Assembly (NCBI GenBank): GCA_016550425.1 | Contig: JABXGS010000198.1 | Location: forward strand, 1 to 19,133 | Reading direction: 5' to 3' | Origin: an archaeon | Lineage (GTDB): Archaea; Asgardarchaeota; Hermodarchaeia; Hermodarchaeales; Hermodarchaeaceae | DNA length: 19,133 nt | Part shown: positions 555 to 19,133 of the stretch, in pieces | Numbering within the stretch: the stretch's first letter is position 1 | How the letters are laid out: the number at the start of each line of letters is the position of its first letter | Program-made: the position numbers and the translations under genes | The notes under the pieces: model-generated | Seen by the model: the letters and a program-made list of their open reading frames with translations, nothing else | Told to the model about the DNA's origin: nothing | Databases searched by the model: none

Positions 555-2216
555 GTGACTTCGGTGCCAGAAGATGTGAAATATCAGCATTGGATCGATG
601 CTCTTGTTGAAGAAATAATCCAATATTGGGGCGTTGACGCTCCACAGCTATACTGTAGTTGCGGTCTCTCTGTTTCTGGTTTACAACATGTGGGTAGGCT
701 TCGAGGTGAAGTCACATTAGCGAATACAGTCATGCAGCAACTCAAAGACCGTGGCTACAAAACACGTCACACCATTGTCCGTTACACGAGTGATGAATGG
801 AAAGGGAAAGAAGAACAGCTCGCCCAATTTTCAGATATGAGTGAAGCCCGAGATCATATTGGCCGTCGGTTAATCGATGTCCCCGACCCTCAAGGTGAGT
901 TAGCAAGTTGGGTTGATCGCTATTGGTTGGACTTTGGTGACTATCTGGATTATTTCAGTCGTGATGCTCAGGTGTTTAGCACCCATGAAATTTACACTTT
1001 ACCTGAAATGCATGCTTTGGTGCGATTTACGATTAAACATCGCGAACAAGCACGAGAAACTATCAATAAATACCGGGCTCGAAATCCCTATCCGAAAAAT
1101 TGGTTCCCTATTGATGTTGTGTGTGAGCAGTGCCAGCACCTTAGCACAACGACGGTGGTGGATGTAGATTTAGATGCTTATACGGCGGACTACCAATGCG
1201 ATCATTGTGGTAACAAAGGAACCACCTCCATCATCAATGGGAAACTCTCGTGGCGACTTGAATGGGCGGCACTCTGGAAGGTACTCGCTGTTGCATTTGA
1301 GCCCTTTGGTAAAGATCATGCTACTCCTGGGGGATCCCGGGATAGTGCCAAAGAAATTGCTGAGAATTTCTATAACTTCAAACCCCCCGTGCCCTATGCG
1401 TATGAATGGGTTGGATTGATCGAAGAGGGTGTGGATAAAGGCGATATGGGAAGCTCTGACTTCAAGGGGTTCACTCCTAAGACCTGGGTCTCGGTGGCAT
1501 TAGGCGAAGCTCTCAGGTATCTGTACCTCAAAAATCGACCCATGAAACGGATTACGTTGGGCCTTGAGTATATTCCTACTTATATCGGACAATACGAACG
1601 TGCAGAGCGAGTCTATTATCAAATTGATCTTCCTAAAGCTCCAATCCAAGAAATCGCTGACATTAAACGGAGTTATGAATTAGCAAACCTTGATTCTCTC
1701 CCTGATGAAGCCCCTCTCCAAGTCCCCTATCTTCACGCGGTCCTTTTAACACAAATTATCCCAGAAGAAAACCTTCCCGAGGTAGCTATTGAAAAACTGC
1801 AAAGTAGTGATATCATTCCAGGAGCTCTAACCAAGAATCAGCAGAATGCAATTGCGGAACGACTTAGCCGGGCTAAGACATGGGTTACCCAATATGCTCC
1901 TAAATCCTATCACGTTATCACTTTATCCATTCCGCCAAAAGGATTGAACCAGTCAATTCCATCTGAACTTCGGGCCTTCTACCAGCAGCTCTATGATTTA
2001 CTTAATCCACAAGAATGGACTGAAAAGGCAATCACCAATGCGATGAAACAGTTAACCCAATCGATGTCCAAGCAAAAACAACGCGCCTTTTTCCGCTATT
2101 TATACAAAGCTTTCTTCGGTACTGATAGTGGTCCTCGGATTTCTGCATATTTTGCCTTTACAGACTCCTCACTGGTTAAGTCTCGGCTTCAATATCTTTC
2201 AAATCCCCAGATATGA
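555..2216 (+). CDS. lysS: Lysyl-tRNA synthetase, class I (archaeal type)
   Basis: This 553-residue protein is a class I LysRS, which charges tRNA-Lys in the cytoplasm and is unrelated to class II LysRS. The HIGH-like signature is SGLQHVGRLRG at residues 41-51. Other family landmarks are FEPFGKDHATPGGS in the active-site region, YEWVGL, and a C-terminal FRYLYKAFFG...GPRISAYFA block typical of the helical anticodon-binding region. Cysteines 190, 193, 215 and 218 form a CxxC...CxxC zinc site inside the catalytic domain. The KMSKS loop is unusual: DMGSSDFKG (297-305) lacks the first lysine. The GTG at 555 gives the longest form. A GTG at 564 has a better Shine-Dalgarno (AGGTGA at 553-558, 5-base spacing) and may be the true start, costing only three residues. 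Length is slightly above the usual 500-530. Confidence 0.95.
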   Translation: MTSVPEDVKYQHWIDALVEEIIQYWGVDAPQLYCSCGLSVSGLQHVGRLRGEVTLANTVMQQLKDRGYKTRHTIVRYTSDEWKGKEEQLAQFSDMSEARDHIGRRLIDVPDPQGELASWVDRYWLDFGDYLDYFSRDAQVFSTHEIYTLPEMHALVRFTIKHREQARETINKYRARNPYPKNWFPIDVVCEQCQHLSTTTVVDVDLDAYTADYQCDHCGNKGTTSIINGKLSWRLEWAALWKVLAVAFEPFGKDHATPGGSRDSAKEIAENFYNFKPPVPYAYEWVGLIEEGVDKGDMGSSDFKGFTPKTWVSVALGEALRYLYLKNRPMKRITLGLEYIPTYIGQYERAERVYYQIDLPKAPIQEIADIKRSYELANLDSLPDEAPLQVPYLHAVLLTQIIPEENLPEVAIEKLQSSDIIPGALTKNQQNAIAERLSRAKTWVTQYAPKSYHVITLSIPPKGLNQSIPSELRAFYQQLYDLLNPQEWTEKAITNAMKQLTQSMSKQKQRAFFRYLYKAFFGTDSGPRISAYFAFTDSSLVKSRLQYLSNPQI

Positions 2217-2741: not shown

Positions 2742-3365
2742 TTAGGTCTCGAAGATTTCTTTGATCCGCTTGATTTCTGCCATCATTTCATTCCGAAGAC
2801 CTGCAATTCCAGGAGTGGGGGCAGCCACTGCAGGGGCTGCAACAGGAGTAGCGGCAGGAGGTGGACTAGTAGTACCTGCAGGAGGTGCACTCGGTGGGGA
2901 AGTTGGTGGCGCTTTTGGTGGTCCAGCAGCTGGTGCTTTGGGGGGTCCGGTAGGTGGTCCAGTTGGTGGTGCACTTGGTGGTTCAGCTGCGGGCAGGGCT
3001 GTAGGTGGGATTTCTGCAGGGGCTTTAGGTACCGCTGCAGCTGTAACTTCACCTAAAAGAATGGATTCAGCATCACCGCCGGCTTCGGCCGTGGCAATGG
3101 AGGCTGAATCGCCTTCAAGAAAATCGAAAATTGCATCTGATGAGGGGCCGCCTGTGCTAATTTCGGCTGCCATCAATGGTGTGCTGGCTGCGCTCATAGG
3201 TGTAACTTGCGCACTCTTCAAATCGCTACGAATCTTATTGAGGCTTTTTTGAAACTCAGTAACTTGTTTAGCAACAGTGTTAAGTGCATCGGCTAAATCG
3301 TTGACGGCTTTTGATAGGAATTCAGATACACGAATCAATATGGCTTCTTTGTCTGAGCCTGACAT
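2742..3365 (-). CDS. Proline/alanine-rich coiled-coil protein (207 aa)
   Basis: I do not recognise a named family. Residues 5-52 are strongly helical with heptad-like hydrophobics (RVSEFLSKAVNDLADALN) and probably form a coiled coil. Residues 75-107 are acidic (IFDFLEGDSAS). Residues 113-185 are a low-complexity Pro/Ala/Thr segment with PPTGPPTGPPKAP-type near repeats and a PPP. Residues 187-207 form a second charged amphipathic helix (RNEMMAEIKRIKEIFE). There is no signal peptide or membrane segment. This is a plausible cytoplasmic scaffold: two helical ends joined by a stiff or disordered linker. Proline-rich linkers also serve as ligands for proline-binding domains, which is speculation here. 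It lies 80 bases downstream of the Nudix gene on the same strand. The opposite strand is also open in this GC-skewed stretch, but that frame reads as Gly/Ala repeats and is a shadow. Confidence 0.8.
   Translation of the reverse strand: MSGSDKEAILIRVSEFLSKAVNDLADALNTVAKQVTEFQKSLNKIRSDLKSAQVTPMSAASTPLMAAEISTGGPSSDAIFDFLEGDSASIATAEAGGDAESILLGEVTAAAVPKAPAEIPPTALPAAEPPSAPPTGPPTGPPKAPAAGPPKAPPTSPPSAPPAGTTSPPPAATPVAAPAVAAPTPGIAGLRNEMMAEIKRIKEIFET
2811..3029. repeat. Degenerate GGTGGT/GGTCC tract encoding the Pro-rich linker
   Basis: On the plus strand this stretch is built from repeated GGTGGT, GGTCC and GGTGC units. On the minus strand these give Pro-Pro, Gly-Pro and Ala-Pro steps. It is an internal low-complexity part of the coiled-coil protein gene rather than a separate element, and its length may vary between strains. 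Confidence 0.6.
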
Positions 3366-4522: not shown

Positions 4523-6301
4523 TTAGGGTTCAACAATAGCCCGTAATCGAAGAGTATCAGCACCAATACGTTTTTGCTTGGTTATTGTAAATTTTCCCAG
4601 TTCGCCAGTATGAGAAACGTGGGGACCACTACAAATTTCTTTGGACACGTTTCCCACCGAATAGACCTTTACCTGTTCGCCATACTTTTCACCAAAGAAT
4701 CCCAACGCTCCCGCCTTCCGCGCCTCTTTCGGGGACATCATTTCGAAACTTATGGGTAAATCGCGCTTTATGATTTCATTAACCCATGTTTCCACTTGCT
4801 TGAGTTCTTCCGGAGTTAGTTTACGATTCAATTGCACATCAAGACGTAACCGTTCGTTAGTGATGTTGCTCCCTTTCTGGTAAACCGAAGTTCCTACAAA
4901 CTTTTGAAGTGCAGCATGGAGCAAATGGGTCGCTGTATGCAAGCGAATGACTTCGTCGGAGTGGTCTGCTAGCCCGCTCGCGAATTTTTGTTGTGTGGCA
5001 TCTCGGGAAATTTGTCTGTGCCGTTCGAACTCTTTTCGGAATTCTTCTAAATCGACTTTCTGGCCATTTTCTTCAGCGATTTGAACAGTCATTTCAGTGG
5101 GGAAACCATATGTAGCAAAGAGCGTGAACGCATCTTTTCCTGTTAACACTCCTTTCTCTTTGAGAATTTTTTCTGCGATGCGAAGCCCTCTACGAAGGGT
5201 TTTCCGGAACCGTTTTTCTTCTTTTTCAATTTGAATCAGAATATGCTTTTGATTTCGGTGAAGTTCATCGTATTCATCCGCGAGACACTCGATAACCGCA
5301 GGAATCAATTTTGTCAGAAAGAATTGATCAATTCCCAGCTGTAATCCCTTACGAATAGCGACTCGTAGTAATCGTCGAATTACGTAGCCACGTTCCACAT
5401 TAGACGGTACAAGTCCCTGGTCGTCTGCTAGGGCCATGGCTGCGGAACGGATATGGTCTGCGATGATTCTAATCGTCTTTTGCTCCTTTGCTGAAGGATT
5501 TTGAATCTGGGCGAGTTCTTTTATTTTCTCCACAATAGGTCTGAAGACATCTGTTTCATACACGCTAGGAAGTTGGTTTATAGCCTGCAAGGCACGTTCT
5601 AGGCCCATACCTGTGTCTATATTCTTCTTCTTGAGAGGTGTTAGTGTTCCATCTTCTGCACGGTCATAAGACATGAAAACAAGATTCCAAATTTCGACGT
5701 ATTTCCCGCATCCACAACCGGGACGACATGTCTTTGAACAACTTGGTTCGAGGGTATCGACAAAAATTTCGGTATCAGGTCCTTGGGGTCCGGTATCACC
5801 TAGAGCCCACCAATTCTCCTTGTAAGATAGATAGTGGATGTGGTCACGTGCAATTCCGAGATTTTCCCAAGCATGTGCTGCCTCTTCATCAGCGGAAACT
5901 TGGCTATCTCCTTCAAAGACGGTCACGTGCAAGTATTCTTTTTCGAGTCCAAGTCCCTCTTGAGGGTCAAGGAGGAATTCCGTTGCCATTTCAATGGCTC
6001 CTTGCTTCCAATAGTCACCCAATGACCAGTTACCTAACATCTCAAAGAAAGTGAGGTGAAAGGTGTCTCCGACTTCATCGATATCGTCGGTTCTGATACA
6101 TTTTTGCACATTGACGAGGCGATTGCCATCTGGGTGTCGTTGACCTAACAAATAGGGCACTAACGGTTGCATTCCCGCACTTTGGAAGAGAACAGTGGGA
6201 TCTAGTTGTGGAATCAACGAAGCGGATGGAATGATTGCATGACCTCGCTTTTGGAAAAATCGTAGGTACCGTTTTCGAAGCTCTGACGCTACCATTCGCA
6301 T
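4523..6301 (-). CDS. alaS: Alanyl-tRNA synthetase, short bacterial/CPR-like form
   Basis: It charges tRNA-Ala with alanine and carries the editing domain that clears Ser/Gly mischarging. Class II core: motif 1 region SLIPQLDPTVLFQSAGM (28-44), motif 2 FHLTFFEMLGNWSLGDY (81-97), and NIDTGMGLERAL near 230 as motif 3. A cysteine cluster (CSKTCRPGCGCGKYVEIWN) precedes it. The editing site is complete: HTATH (H455, H459) and C557-x3-H561. The protein stops right after that domain, so at 592 residues it lacks the oligomerisation/DHHA1 C-Ala region that brings other AlaRS to about 850-900. The wording of the motifs (GNWSLGDY, RPGCxCGKYVEIWN, LVNVQKCIRT) resembles Patescibacteria/CPR enzymes rather than archaeal AlaRS, suggesting horizontal transfer. 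The ATG at 6301 has GAGGAAG 6 bases upstream; M3 is an alternative start. Confidence 0.93.
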   Translation of the reverse strand: MRMVASELRKRYLRFFQKRGHAIIPSASLIPQLDPTVLFQSAGMQPLVPYLLGQRHPDGNRLVNVQKCIRTDDIDEVGDTFHLTFFEMLGNWSLGDYWKQGAIEMATEFLLDPQEGLGLEKEYLHVTVFEGDSQVSADEEAAHAWENLGIARDHIHYLSYKENWWALGDTGPQGPDTEIFVDTLEPSCSKTCRPGCGCGKYVEIWNLVFMSYDRAEDGTLTPLKKKNIDTGMGLERALQAINQLPSVYETDVFRPIVEKIKELAQIQNPSAKEQKTIRIIADHIRSAAMALADDQGLVPSNVERGYVIRRLLRVAIRKGLQLGIDQFFLTKLIPAVIECLADEYDELHRNQKHILIQIEKEEKRFRKTLRRGLRIAEKILKEKGVLTGKDAFTLFATYGFPTEMTVQIAEENGQKVDLEEFRKEFERHRQISRDATQQKFASGLADHSDEVIRLHTATHLLHAALQKFVGTSVYQKGSNITNERLRLDVQLNRKLTPEELKQVETWVNEIIKRDLPISFEMMSPKEARKAGALGFFGEKYGEQVKVYSVGNVSKEICSGPHVSHTGELGKFTITKQKRIGADTLRLRAIVEP

Positions 6302-18662: not shown

Positions 18663-19133
18663 GTGATTCATTTGAGCTGGCTTAAATCAATTCATCTCCA
18701 ACCAATAGGTTTCATAGAACGCCTATCGTCAGATGAGAGAGATTTTAGTGCCATGTCTAAAGTTGTACTAAAAGACTCTTTGGTAGACGCCCTACTAGGA
18801 ATTGAGGAGTTTTCACATATTTTCATAATCTTTTGGTTACACGAAATGCAAATCAGAGAAGATAGTTCCTGGGTTCATCCGAGCTGCTCAGATAATCAAC
18901 ATCTAGTAGGCTTTTTAGCGACTAGAGCTCCCCGTCGTCCGAATCCCATAGGACTGACTCTTGTTGAGCTTGTAAAGCATGAAAACAATGTTCTTTGGGT
19001 GAAAGGATTGGACGCAGTTGATGGAACTCCTGTTATTGATATTAAGCCATACCCTGATTGGCATACGGGAGAATGTCAGGTGATTGTTGATTACAAAATT
19101 CCTGATTGGTTGAAACAATTACTTGACTCAAGT
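18663..19133 (+). CDS. trmO: TrmO/TsaA tRNA-t6A37 methyltransferase, cut at right edge
   Basis: The frame is open from GTG 18663 to the last base (157 codons) with no stop, so the 3' end lies outside. It has QPIGFIE (about 13-19), and FLATRAPRRPNPIGLT (84-99), the hallmark SAM-binding block of the TrmO family. Further C-terminal are GLDAVDGTPVIDIKPYPD, then a charged tail. TrmO methylates N6 of t6A at position 37 in tRNA-Thr, tuning decoding of ACY codons; archaeal members are shorter than the 235-residue E. coli enzyme and lack its extra domain. An alternative start is TTG 18672; the ATG before SKVVL is too late, since it would lose the PIGFIE block. Expression probably uses the shared box at 18584-18594. 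Confidence 0.92.
   Translation, partial: MIHLSWLKSIHLQPIGFIERLSSDERDFSAMSKVVLKDSLVDALLGIEEFSHIFIIFWLHEMQIREDSSWVHPSCSDNQHLVGFLATRAPRRPNPIGLTLVELVKHENNVLWVKGLDAVDGTPVIDIKPYPDWHTGECQVIVDYKIPDWLKQLLDSS

Follow-up and report, generated by a model that had tools for sequence, protein, structure and literature searches.

A short alanyl-tRNA synthetase of the NF002436/PRK01584 family, without C-Ala and the glycine-rich barrel, in Asgard archaea

The 19,133-nucleotide stretch of contig JABXGS010000198.1 analyzed here (hereafter the window) codes for an alanyl-tRNA synthetase (AlaRS) of 592 residues, which an earlier note, made from the sequence, had taken to be a CPR-like enzyme devoid of C-Ala in an apparently archaeal genome. 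This raises the question of whether such a protein is a genuine and complete synthetase, from where it was acquired, and whether it stands in place of the archaeal AlaRS. The reading that we favor, with a probability of roughly three in four, is that it is a functional short AlaRS of the NF002436/PRK01584 family, representing an old acquisition that was shared or exchanged with DPANN and inherited within Asgard, and that it is most likely the sole AlaRS of its cell.

Architecture and family membership

The reading frame is complete from ATG to TAA (bases 6301 to 4523), confirming the 592-residue frame of the earlier note, in which the strand (minus; Table 1) is not given. The motifs quoted there were located at residues 62-71 (LVNVQKCIRT), 90-97 (GNWSLGDY) and 193-206 (RPGCGCGKYVEIWN), and the CxxxH of the editing domain lies, as claimed, at C557-H561 (CSGPH, 557-561). 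The protein does not, as had been stated, end immediately after this motif, but runs on for 31 residues past H561. Pfam recovers tRNA-synt_2c (PF01411) at residues 7-458 (profile positions 1-452 of 552, 474 bits) and tRNA_SAD (PF07973) at residues 544-586, and the AlaX-M profile of NCBIfam matches only from its position 93. The asserted lack of C-Ala was borne out, with no match to DHHA1 by Pfam in the protein and none to C-Ala by tblastn elsewhere in the window.

Table 1. Coordinates of the synthetase genes of the window and of the parts of the short AlaRS
Feature	Position	Strand	Basis
alaS, short (C-Ala-less) alanyl-tRNA synthetase, 592 aa	4523..6301 (stop codon at 4523-4525 included)	minus	ORF, Pfam, NCBIfam
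Class II catalytic domain, residues 1-240	5582..6301	minus	PF01411; Foldseek to 1riq/3hxu/5knn; boundary approximate, inferred
tRNA-recognition helical domain, residues 241-440	4982..5581	minus	Helices in model, Foldseek; boundary approximate, inferred
N301, equivalent of E. coli N303 (U70 reader), kept	5399..5401	minus	Alignment
A396, equivalent of E. coli D400 (G3 reader), Asp lost	5114..5116	minus	Alignment
Short linker, residues 441-448, at the site of the ~100-residue beta-barrel subdomain of other AlaRS	4958..4981	minus	Alignment, model (low confidence at 432-446)
AlaX-S-like editing core, residues 449-592	4526..4957	minus	PF07973; structural match to 1v7o (TM 0.82-0.86 by target)
HxxxH of editing site (H455, H459)	4925..4939	minus	Alignment, sequence
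CxxxH of editing site (C557, H561)	4619..4633	minus	Alignment, sequence
Class I lysyl-tRNA synthetase (LysK), Asgard lineage marker linked to alaS	555..2216	plus	Pfam, NCBIfam, labels of relatives

Besides C-Ala a second module is absent, which the earlier note had overlooked. An alignment of the E. coli, one archaeal-type and one Cloacimonadota full-length AlaRS with the Borreliella enzyme and one from Woesearchaeota shows that the short enzymes lack a β-barrel/glycine-rich segment, some 100 residues long, that separates the tRNA-recognition helices from HxxxH and bears FYAESGGQVGD in E. coli, together with everything beyond about E. coli residue 700. The HxxxH is at 455 in the window AlaRS as against 554-578 in full-length bacterial AlaRS; the latter continue 208-220 residues further, and in short loci the Cys of CxxxH lies 35-43 residues from the C terminus. 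Uncut genes are present at 62 of the short loci L001-L066 and code for 562-648 residues (L063 and L066, which run off contig ends, and L025 and L033, which start near one, are excluded from this set). Their HxxxH is at 424-496 where the motif search matched; this search missed eight uncut loci (L022, L023, L040, L052, L054, L059, L060 and L061), and the aligned HxxxH column is His in 67 of 67 short loci. By tblastn no convincing barrel was found elsewhere in the window (best match E=0.21). Among the Asgard relatives, 40 of the 47 sequences in the window protein's own clade have 590-620 residues, seven are shorter (410-550) and none is longer, and all 120 members of a second Asgard clade among the matches listed have 563-611.

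The structure predicted for the Asgard AlaRS, built from an alignment of 47 rows (A1), has a pLDDT of 85.9, with values under 50 only at 33-36 and 432-446. In Foldseek searches it matches the AlaRS catalytic fragments 1riq, 3hxu and 5knn (TM 0.83-0.87 by target), and its editing core resembles AlaX-S of P. horikoshii (1v7o/1wnu; TM 0.81-0.86 by target) as against 0.52 for AlaX-M (2e1b). The barrel is absent from AlaX-S too, but AlaX-S is a free protein, whereas the editing core of the window AlaRS is fused to the synthetase. The class II catalytic core and the recognition domain are present, as seen from PF01411, the structure match and invariant columns. The window protein is hence an aminoacylation half joined to an AlaX-S-like editing core with the site H455/H459/C557/H561 intact, and these four residues are kept in all 165 sequences of the two Asgard clades.

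With the NF002436/PRK01584 profile the window AlaRS scores 769.3 bits over residues 3-591 (profile 1-593 of 595; cut-off 529), above its 625 bits with the bacterial profile TIGR00344, and it obtains 265 bits with the archaeal profile TIGR03683, under the cut-off of 744.7. For E. coli AlaRS the values are 1205 bits with TIGR00344 and 566.7 with NF002436, the latter covering only 4-437 of 595. Because this full-length enzyme exceeds the NF002436 cut-off, which is passed by six of 14 control genomes, the cut-off is unspecific alone and was dropped as proof of the short form. Nine short proteins, from Borreliella, Clostridia, Spirochaetales, Kuenenbacteria, Woesearchaeota, Lentisphaeria, Methanomethylophilaceae and Asgard (P0311 and P0254), match the profile end to end with 825-1191 bits, and each scores lower on TIGR00344. 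By its end-to-end match, its higher score on NF002436 than on TIGR00344 and its stop after the editing core, the window AlaRS is a short AlaRS of this family. The family is known and curated at NCBI; the enzyme is real, complete, not specific to CPR, and old and widespread in Asgard. Among the matches listed the short form also occurs in Spirochaetes, Clostridia, Lentisphaeria, CPR, DPANN and Methanomethylophilaceae; a scan of genome contigs gave no Asgard-titled locus among the 80 loci listed.

The enzyme of Borreliella bissettiae (L041; 1191 bits with NF002436) shares with the window AlaRS its length, two-domain layout, end-to-end match and absence of both barrel and C-Ala. E. coli AlaRS is homologous in the catalytic/recognition half (38% over 1-458) and in the editing core (45% over 560-699), but has the barrel (about residues 459-559), C-Ala and D400, none of which is found in the window AlaRS. 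The archaeal AlaRS (TIGR03683; A. fulgidus 3wqy) is homologous too, best in the recognition and editing parts, but has about 900 residues and forms a separate clade on a long branch. A study of the short AlaRS in Asgard or DPANN was not found among the open-access matches listed, nor was biochemistry of any NF002436 member in the literature searched. The available text of PMC6349945 treats the split AlaRS of Nanoarchaeum and aminoacyl-tRNA synthetases of DPANN that group with those of eukaryotes, and that of PMC11580382 mentions fissed AlaRS; neither of these texts, as far as available, mentions the short form.

Phylogenetic position and source

We computed four trees, a quick one of 87 rows and careful ones of 60, 65 and 62 rows, the last with both tRNA-reading columns left out, and rooted each on three to five archaeal-type AlaRS from relatives of a Methanomethylophilaceae genome. 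The phylogeny, which the earlier note had called for, places the protein within the short group and not inside archaeal AlaRS in all four. The short sequences form one group with support of 100/99, 99/98 and 100/98 in the 60-, 65- and 62-row trees respectively; in the 87-row tree one Rickettsiales row (L058) lies outside, and this row was omitted along with 26 others, some of them divergent, from the 60-row tree and was also omitted from the later ones. The window protein's clade has support of 100/100. The second Asgard clade, around P0047, numbers 120 among the matches listed, all short, with labels of Thorarchaeota (including SMTZ1-45), Lokiarchaeota, Sifarchaeia, Hermodarchaeota and Promethearchaeota. 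P0047 itself, considered as a bacterial sister row, was rejected as such, for it falls inside this clade; P0052, which has no label, is placed with Asgard by the 62-row tree only. Organism labels are carried by six of 47 sequences in the first clade and 27 of 118 in the second, all of them Asgard, and the unlabelled rest of the 165 were counted by clade membership. In the 62-row tree the two clades are joined at 100/99, inside the short group. The horizontal gain suggested in the earlier note thus stands in the broad sense, since by profile scores and trees a C-Ala-less AlaRS of bacterial type sits in an archaeal contig; it does not stand as a local gain, because the second Asgard clade carries the short AlaRS too.

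In the 62-row tree a 34-row group (98/92) unites Asgard with 13 DPANN rows, four other rows and one CPR row, and a 34-row group of the 65-row tree (96/79) unites it with 17 DPANN and seven database rows. The link to DPANN depends on sampling, because in the 87- and 60-row trees, which hold few DPANN rows, L034, L037 and L040 fell outside the Asgard-containing group and L001 alone was inside; in the former tree these three rows group with CPR, Lentisphaeria and Clostridia. Nor do pairwise scores against the window protein separate the donors, as Caldicoprobacterales (707 bits) and the best sampled DPANN (705 bits, 56%) are nearly equal, the best CPR sequence reaching 666 bits (52%).

The same data bear on a direct horizontal gain from CPR/Patescibacteria, which we consider improbable, though better placed than the other alternatives. 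In the phylum to which the Kuenenbacteria genome G072 belongs, 370 of the 379 genomes sampled match at E<=1e-30 (the count for the phylum of the Woesearchaeota genome G001 being 157 of 371), and one CPR row (L229) adjoins the Asgard clade at 92/81 in the 62-row tree. However, the other nine CPR rows of that tree lie outside the Asgard and DPANN group (98/92), all 11 lie outside the 34-row group of the 65-row tree (96/79), and the best DPANN match is somewhat stronger than the best CPR one. Placing Asgard, P0047, P0052 and 11 CPR rows in one clade costs 32 log units, and the AU test leaves this arrangement unrejected (p=0.09). The sequence comparisons therefore favor a DPANN neighborhood for the Asgard AlaRS and disfavor kinship with CPR, which is not formally rejected. 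The wording 'CPR-like' is not supported, as the short form is also found in Spirochaetes, Clostridia, Lentisphaeria and DPANN and the best-sampled trees favor DPANN. In the old acquisition that we prefer, the short AlaRS would have been gained anciently, shared or exchanged with DPANN, and then inherited within Asgard, with the archaeal AlaRS of about 900 residues being displaced by it.

Methanomethylophilaceae appear to have a different history. Of 60 relatives of one genome of this family, 33 exceed the NF002436 cut-off, with the match spanning positions 1 to 593/594 in 31, and the row L013 groups with Clostridia (99/94, 62-row tree), so that their short AlaRS looks like a separate acquisition by archaea.

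Probable replacement of the archaeal enzyme and origin of the contig

The earlier note had left open replacement of, or coexistence with, an archaeal AlaRS. Were an archaeal AlaRS kept elsewhere in the genome, the short enzyme might do another job, and two DPANN genomes lend this some color: G145 has two short copies, and G383 has a weak 350-residue partial catalytic match beside its short enzyme. Against this, full-length AlaRS is absent from all 39 non-Asgard carrier genomes searched (10 of 10 mixed and 29 of 29 DPANN, of completeness not given), in which every full catalytic match is the short form, in open frames of 572-664 residues. TIGR03683 is matched over its cut-off in none of 20 carriers as against four of 14 controls. 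Furthermore, the Asgard sequences have retained the positions for catalysis, recognition and editing, as would be expected of an essential enzyme. Coexistence thus appears unlikely, and replacement of the archaeal AlaRS by the short form in Asgard is likely by analogy with these carriers. The two copies of G145 (C1:267867-269627 and C1:753610-755376) are divergent from each other.

We judge it equally doubtful that an AlaX-L-type protein supplies the missing C-Ala and barrel in trans. Two Methanomethylophilaceae carriers do have a protein of 404-426 residues with a barrel part, an editing core and DHHA1. However, a tRNA_SAD search of 18 carriers gave AlaX-sized extra frames in G005, G006 and G070 only, and a single match in each of the four DPANN genomes of the set; most bacteria have two matches, in AlaRS- and ThrRS-sized frames, and G072 has a third, synthetase-sized. 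In eight of the 29 DPANN carriers a match that includes the barrel lies in a frame of AlaX size, in some cases read with stops, so that some of these genomes do have AlaX. Both searches speak against supply in trans as a general rule, which we reject; with AlaX frames this few, the non-Asgard carriers searched seem as a rule to charge and edit with no C-Ala supplied in trans. The proteins of the two Methanomethylophilaceae carriers (L091:577-1857 and L092:580-1794) match about 493-900 of archaeal AlaRS and could be either AlaX-L or what remains of the displaced enzyme.

The assumption of an archaeal contig in the earlier note is well supported. The relatives of the LysK encoded beside alaS (62-99% identity), labelled Thorarchaeota, Promethearchaeota and Hermodarchaeota, form an Asgard-labelled clade. 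Eight sizes of longest contigs (232321, 170204, 21012, 18044, 14880, 13672, 13304 and 11795) are common to the lists of LysK and AlaRS relatives, indicating, by the match in size, eight contigs with both genes. The closest AlaRS relative, of 97% identity and the same length, is labelled Thorarchaeota, and Promethearchaeota, Hermodarchaeota and Hodarchaeota are the other labels in its clade; the labels of the contig's relatives mix Asgard classes. A chimeric contig, or truncation through a frameshift or misassembly, is hardly credible given this relative, the eight shared sizes, the equal GC of alaS and lysK (0.450 in both) and the absence of a C-Ala remnant from the window, and the contig looks archaeal (Asgard) and not chimeric. 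A frameshift artefact was ruled out, as none of the 47 sequences in the window protein's clade exceeds 620 residues. The window contains no tRNA genes; a 207-residue Pro/Ala-rich protein with no Pfam match lies between LysK and AlaRS (2742-3365), and the N-terminal domain of a TrmO-type tRNA methyltransferase (18663-19133) runs off the window end.

Recognition of tRNA-Ala and a possible mechanism

The Asn and Asp that read the G3:U70 pair, which we take to be N303 and D400 of E. coli AlaRS in agreement with the alignment, correspond to N301 and A396 of the window AlaRS. According to the available text of PMC10036535, the Asn contacts O4 of U70 and the Asp the 2-amino group of G3. All 47 sequences of the window protein's clade keep the Asn and have Ala (33), Ser (8), Gln (5) or Thr (1) at position 400; all 118 of the second clade keep it and have Thr (117) or Gln (1). 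The Asp is thus found in 0 of 165 sequences of the two Asgard clades, and the U70-reading Asn in every one. Elsewhere, position 400 is Asp in 17 of 18 full-length bacterial enzymes (Glu in the other), in 10 of 10 archaeal-type ones, in 36 of 67 short loci and in 48 of 74 other short database sequences, a mixed set that includes P0047, P0052, P0053 and probably more Asgard rows. Borreliella, unlike the two Asgard clades, keeps it. Its loss is not peculiar to Asgard, because many DPANN, CPR and other short sequences lack it as well: it is present in one of the 30 most similar DPANN sequences and in 11 of the 30 most similar CPR ones, and presence or absence of Asp requires eight changes on the 62-row tree (reader columns left out). 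This loss limits the label 'canonical AlaRS', not that of 'short AlaRS'.

For the tRNA, a pattern fixing C71, C72 and A73, but neither base 3 nor base 70, was run on 47 non-Asgard carrier genomes. It gave 62 rows (30 + 32), two without a locus; of the 60 with loci ARAGORN called 19 tRNA-Ala and 41 none, the latter including L276 (G100), which ends in U70 and whose 5' half is missing. The tRNA-Ala(UGC) was thereby confirmed in 19 of 47 carriers and not found with this pattern in 28; two tRNA-Ala genes of G072, found by a pattern that fixes U70, were excluded from the count. All 19 confirmed tRNA-Ala have G3:U70, and among these carriers ten have enzymes without Asp (nine Gln, one Glu) and four have Lys in place of Asn, with two in both sets. 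The signal therefore stays while its known readers change. Lys replaces the U70-reading Asn in the short AlaRS of Methanomethylophilaceae and two DPANN, and Arg does so in Lentisphaeria (altered loci L013, L018, L220, L222 and, with Arg, L030); in the four genomes with Lys the tRNA-Ala keeps G3:U70.

Based on these observations we propose that alanine activation and the charging of tRNA-Ala both fall to the N-terminal half, which would contact the acceptor stem, with N301 probably reading U70 and the usual Asp for G3 missing. The tethered AlaX-S-like core, with its complete HxxxH/CxxxH metal site, would clear mischarged serine; the tether in cis may substitute for C-Ala, the enzyme is probably monomeric, and Gly-tRNA-Ala would be cleared by another enzyme. 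As far as the available text of PMC10036535 goes, the Tupanvirus mini-AlaRS sets a precedent for an enzyme that charges with neither C-Ala nor the Asn/Asp pair and is yet specific for G3:U70; it differs in having no editing domain either, in grouping with eukaryotic AlaRS, and in having neither Asn nor Asp. According to a review (PMC11295145, available part), AlaXp-S hydrolyses only Ser-tRNA-Ala and has no tRNA specificity. Counting against the proposed mode of editing is the roughly 1000-fold drop in editing upon removal of C-Ala, reported in the available part of another review (PMC3158927).

It is conceivable, if tentative, that much of Asgard (labelled Thor-, Loki-, Hermod- and Sifarchaeia) exchanged its archaeal AlaRS at an early stage for a minimal enzyme of bacterial type with rewired reading of G3:U70. 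Alanine identity would then depend on U70 and other contacts, editing would proceed with neither C-Ala nor the glycine-rich domain, and changes in Asgard tRNA-Ala or in the editing partners (DTD2, AlaX) may have accompanied the exchange. The widespread short form contradicts the 2011 review (PMC3158927), according to whose available part every AlaRS has C-Ala joined to its editing domain. The short form offers natural enzymes that must carry out aminoacylation and editing with neither C-Ala nor the glycine-rich domain and that in many lineages lack the G3-reading Asp too. If the archaeal AlaRS is truly gone, some members of the archaeal group nearest to eukaryotes use a bacterial-type enzyme for a core step of translation. 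Eukaryotic AlaRS keeps C-Ala and would therefore be hard to derive from the short form. This retention is also implied by the available text of PMC10036535. New here is the absence of the G3 reader from every sequence examined in the two Asgard clades, in which the U70 reader is retained. The second missing module and the probable loss of the archaeal AlaRS to the short form in some Asgard lineages are of note as well.

A search of viral contigs matched 18 loci. One of them (L118), a 76% match, was dismissed as a 35-residue fragment on a contig with phage-like genes. Three others (L107, L108 and L109; match from 10001), on IMG/VR contigs of 90-411 kb, code for a 445-residue AlaRS without editing domain and C-Ala, a layout resembling that of the Tupanvirus mini-AlaRS.
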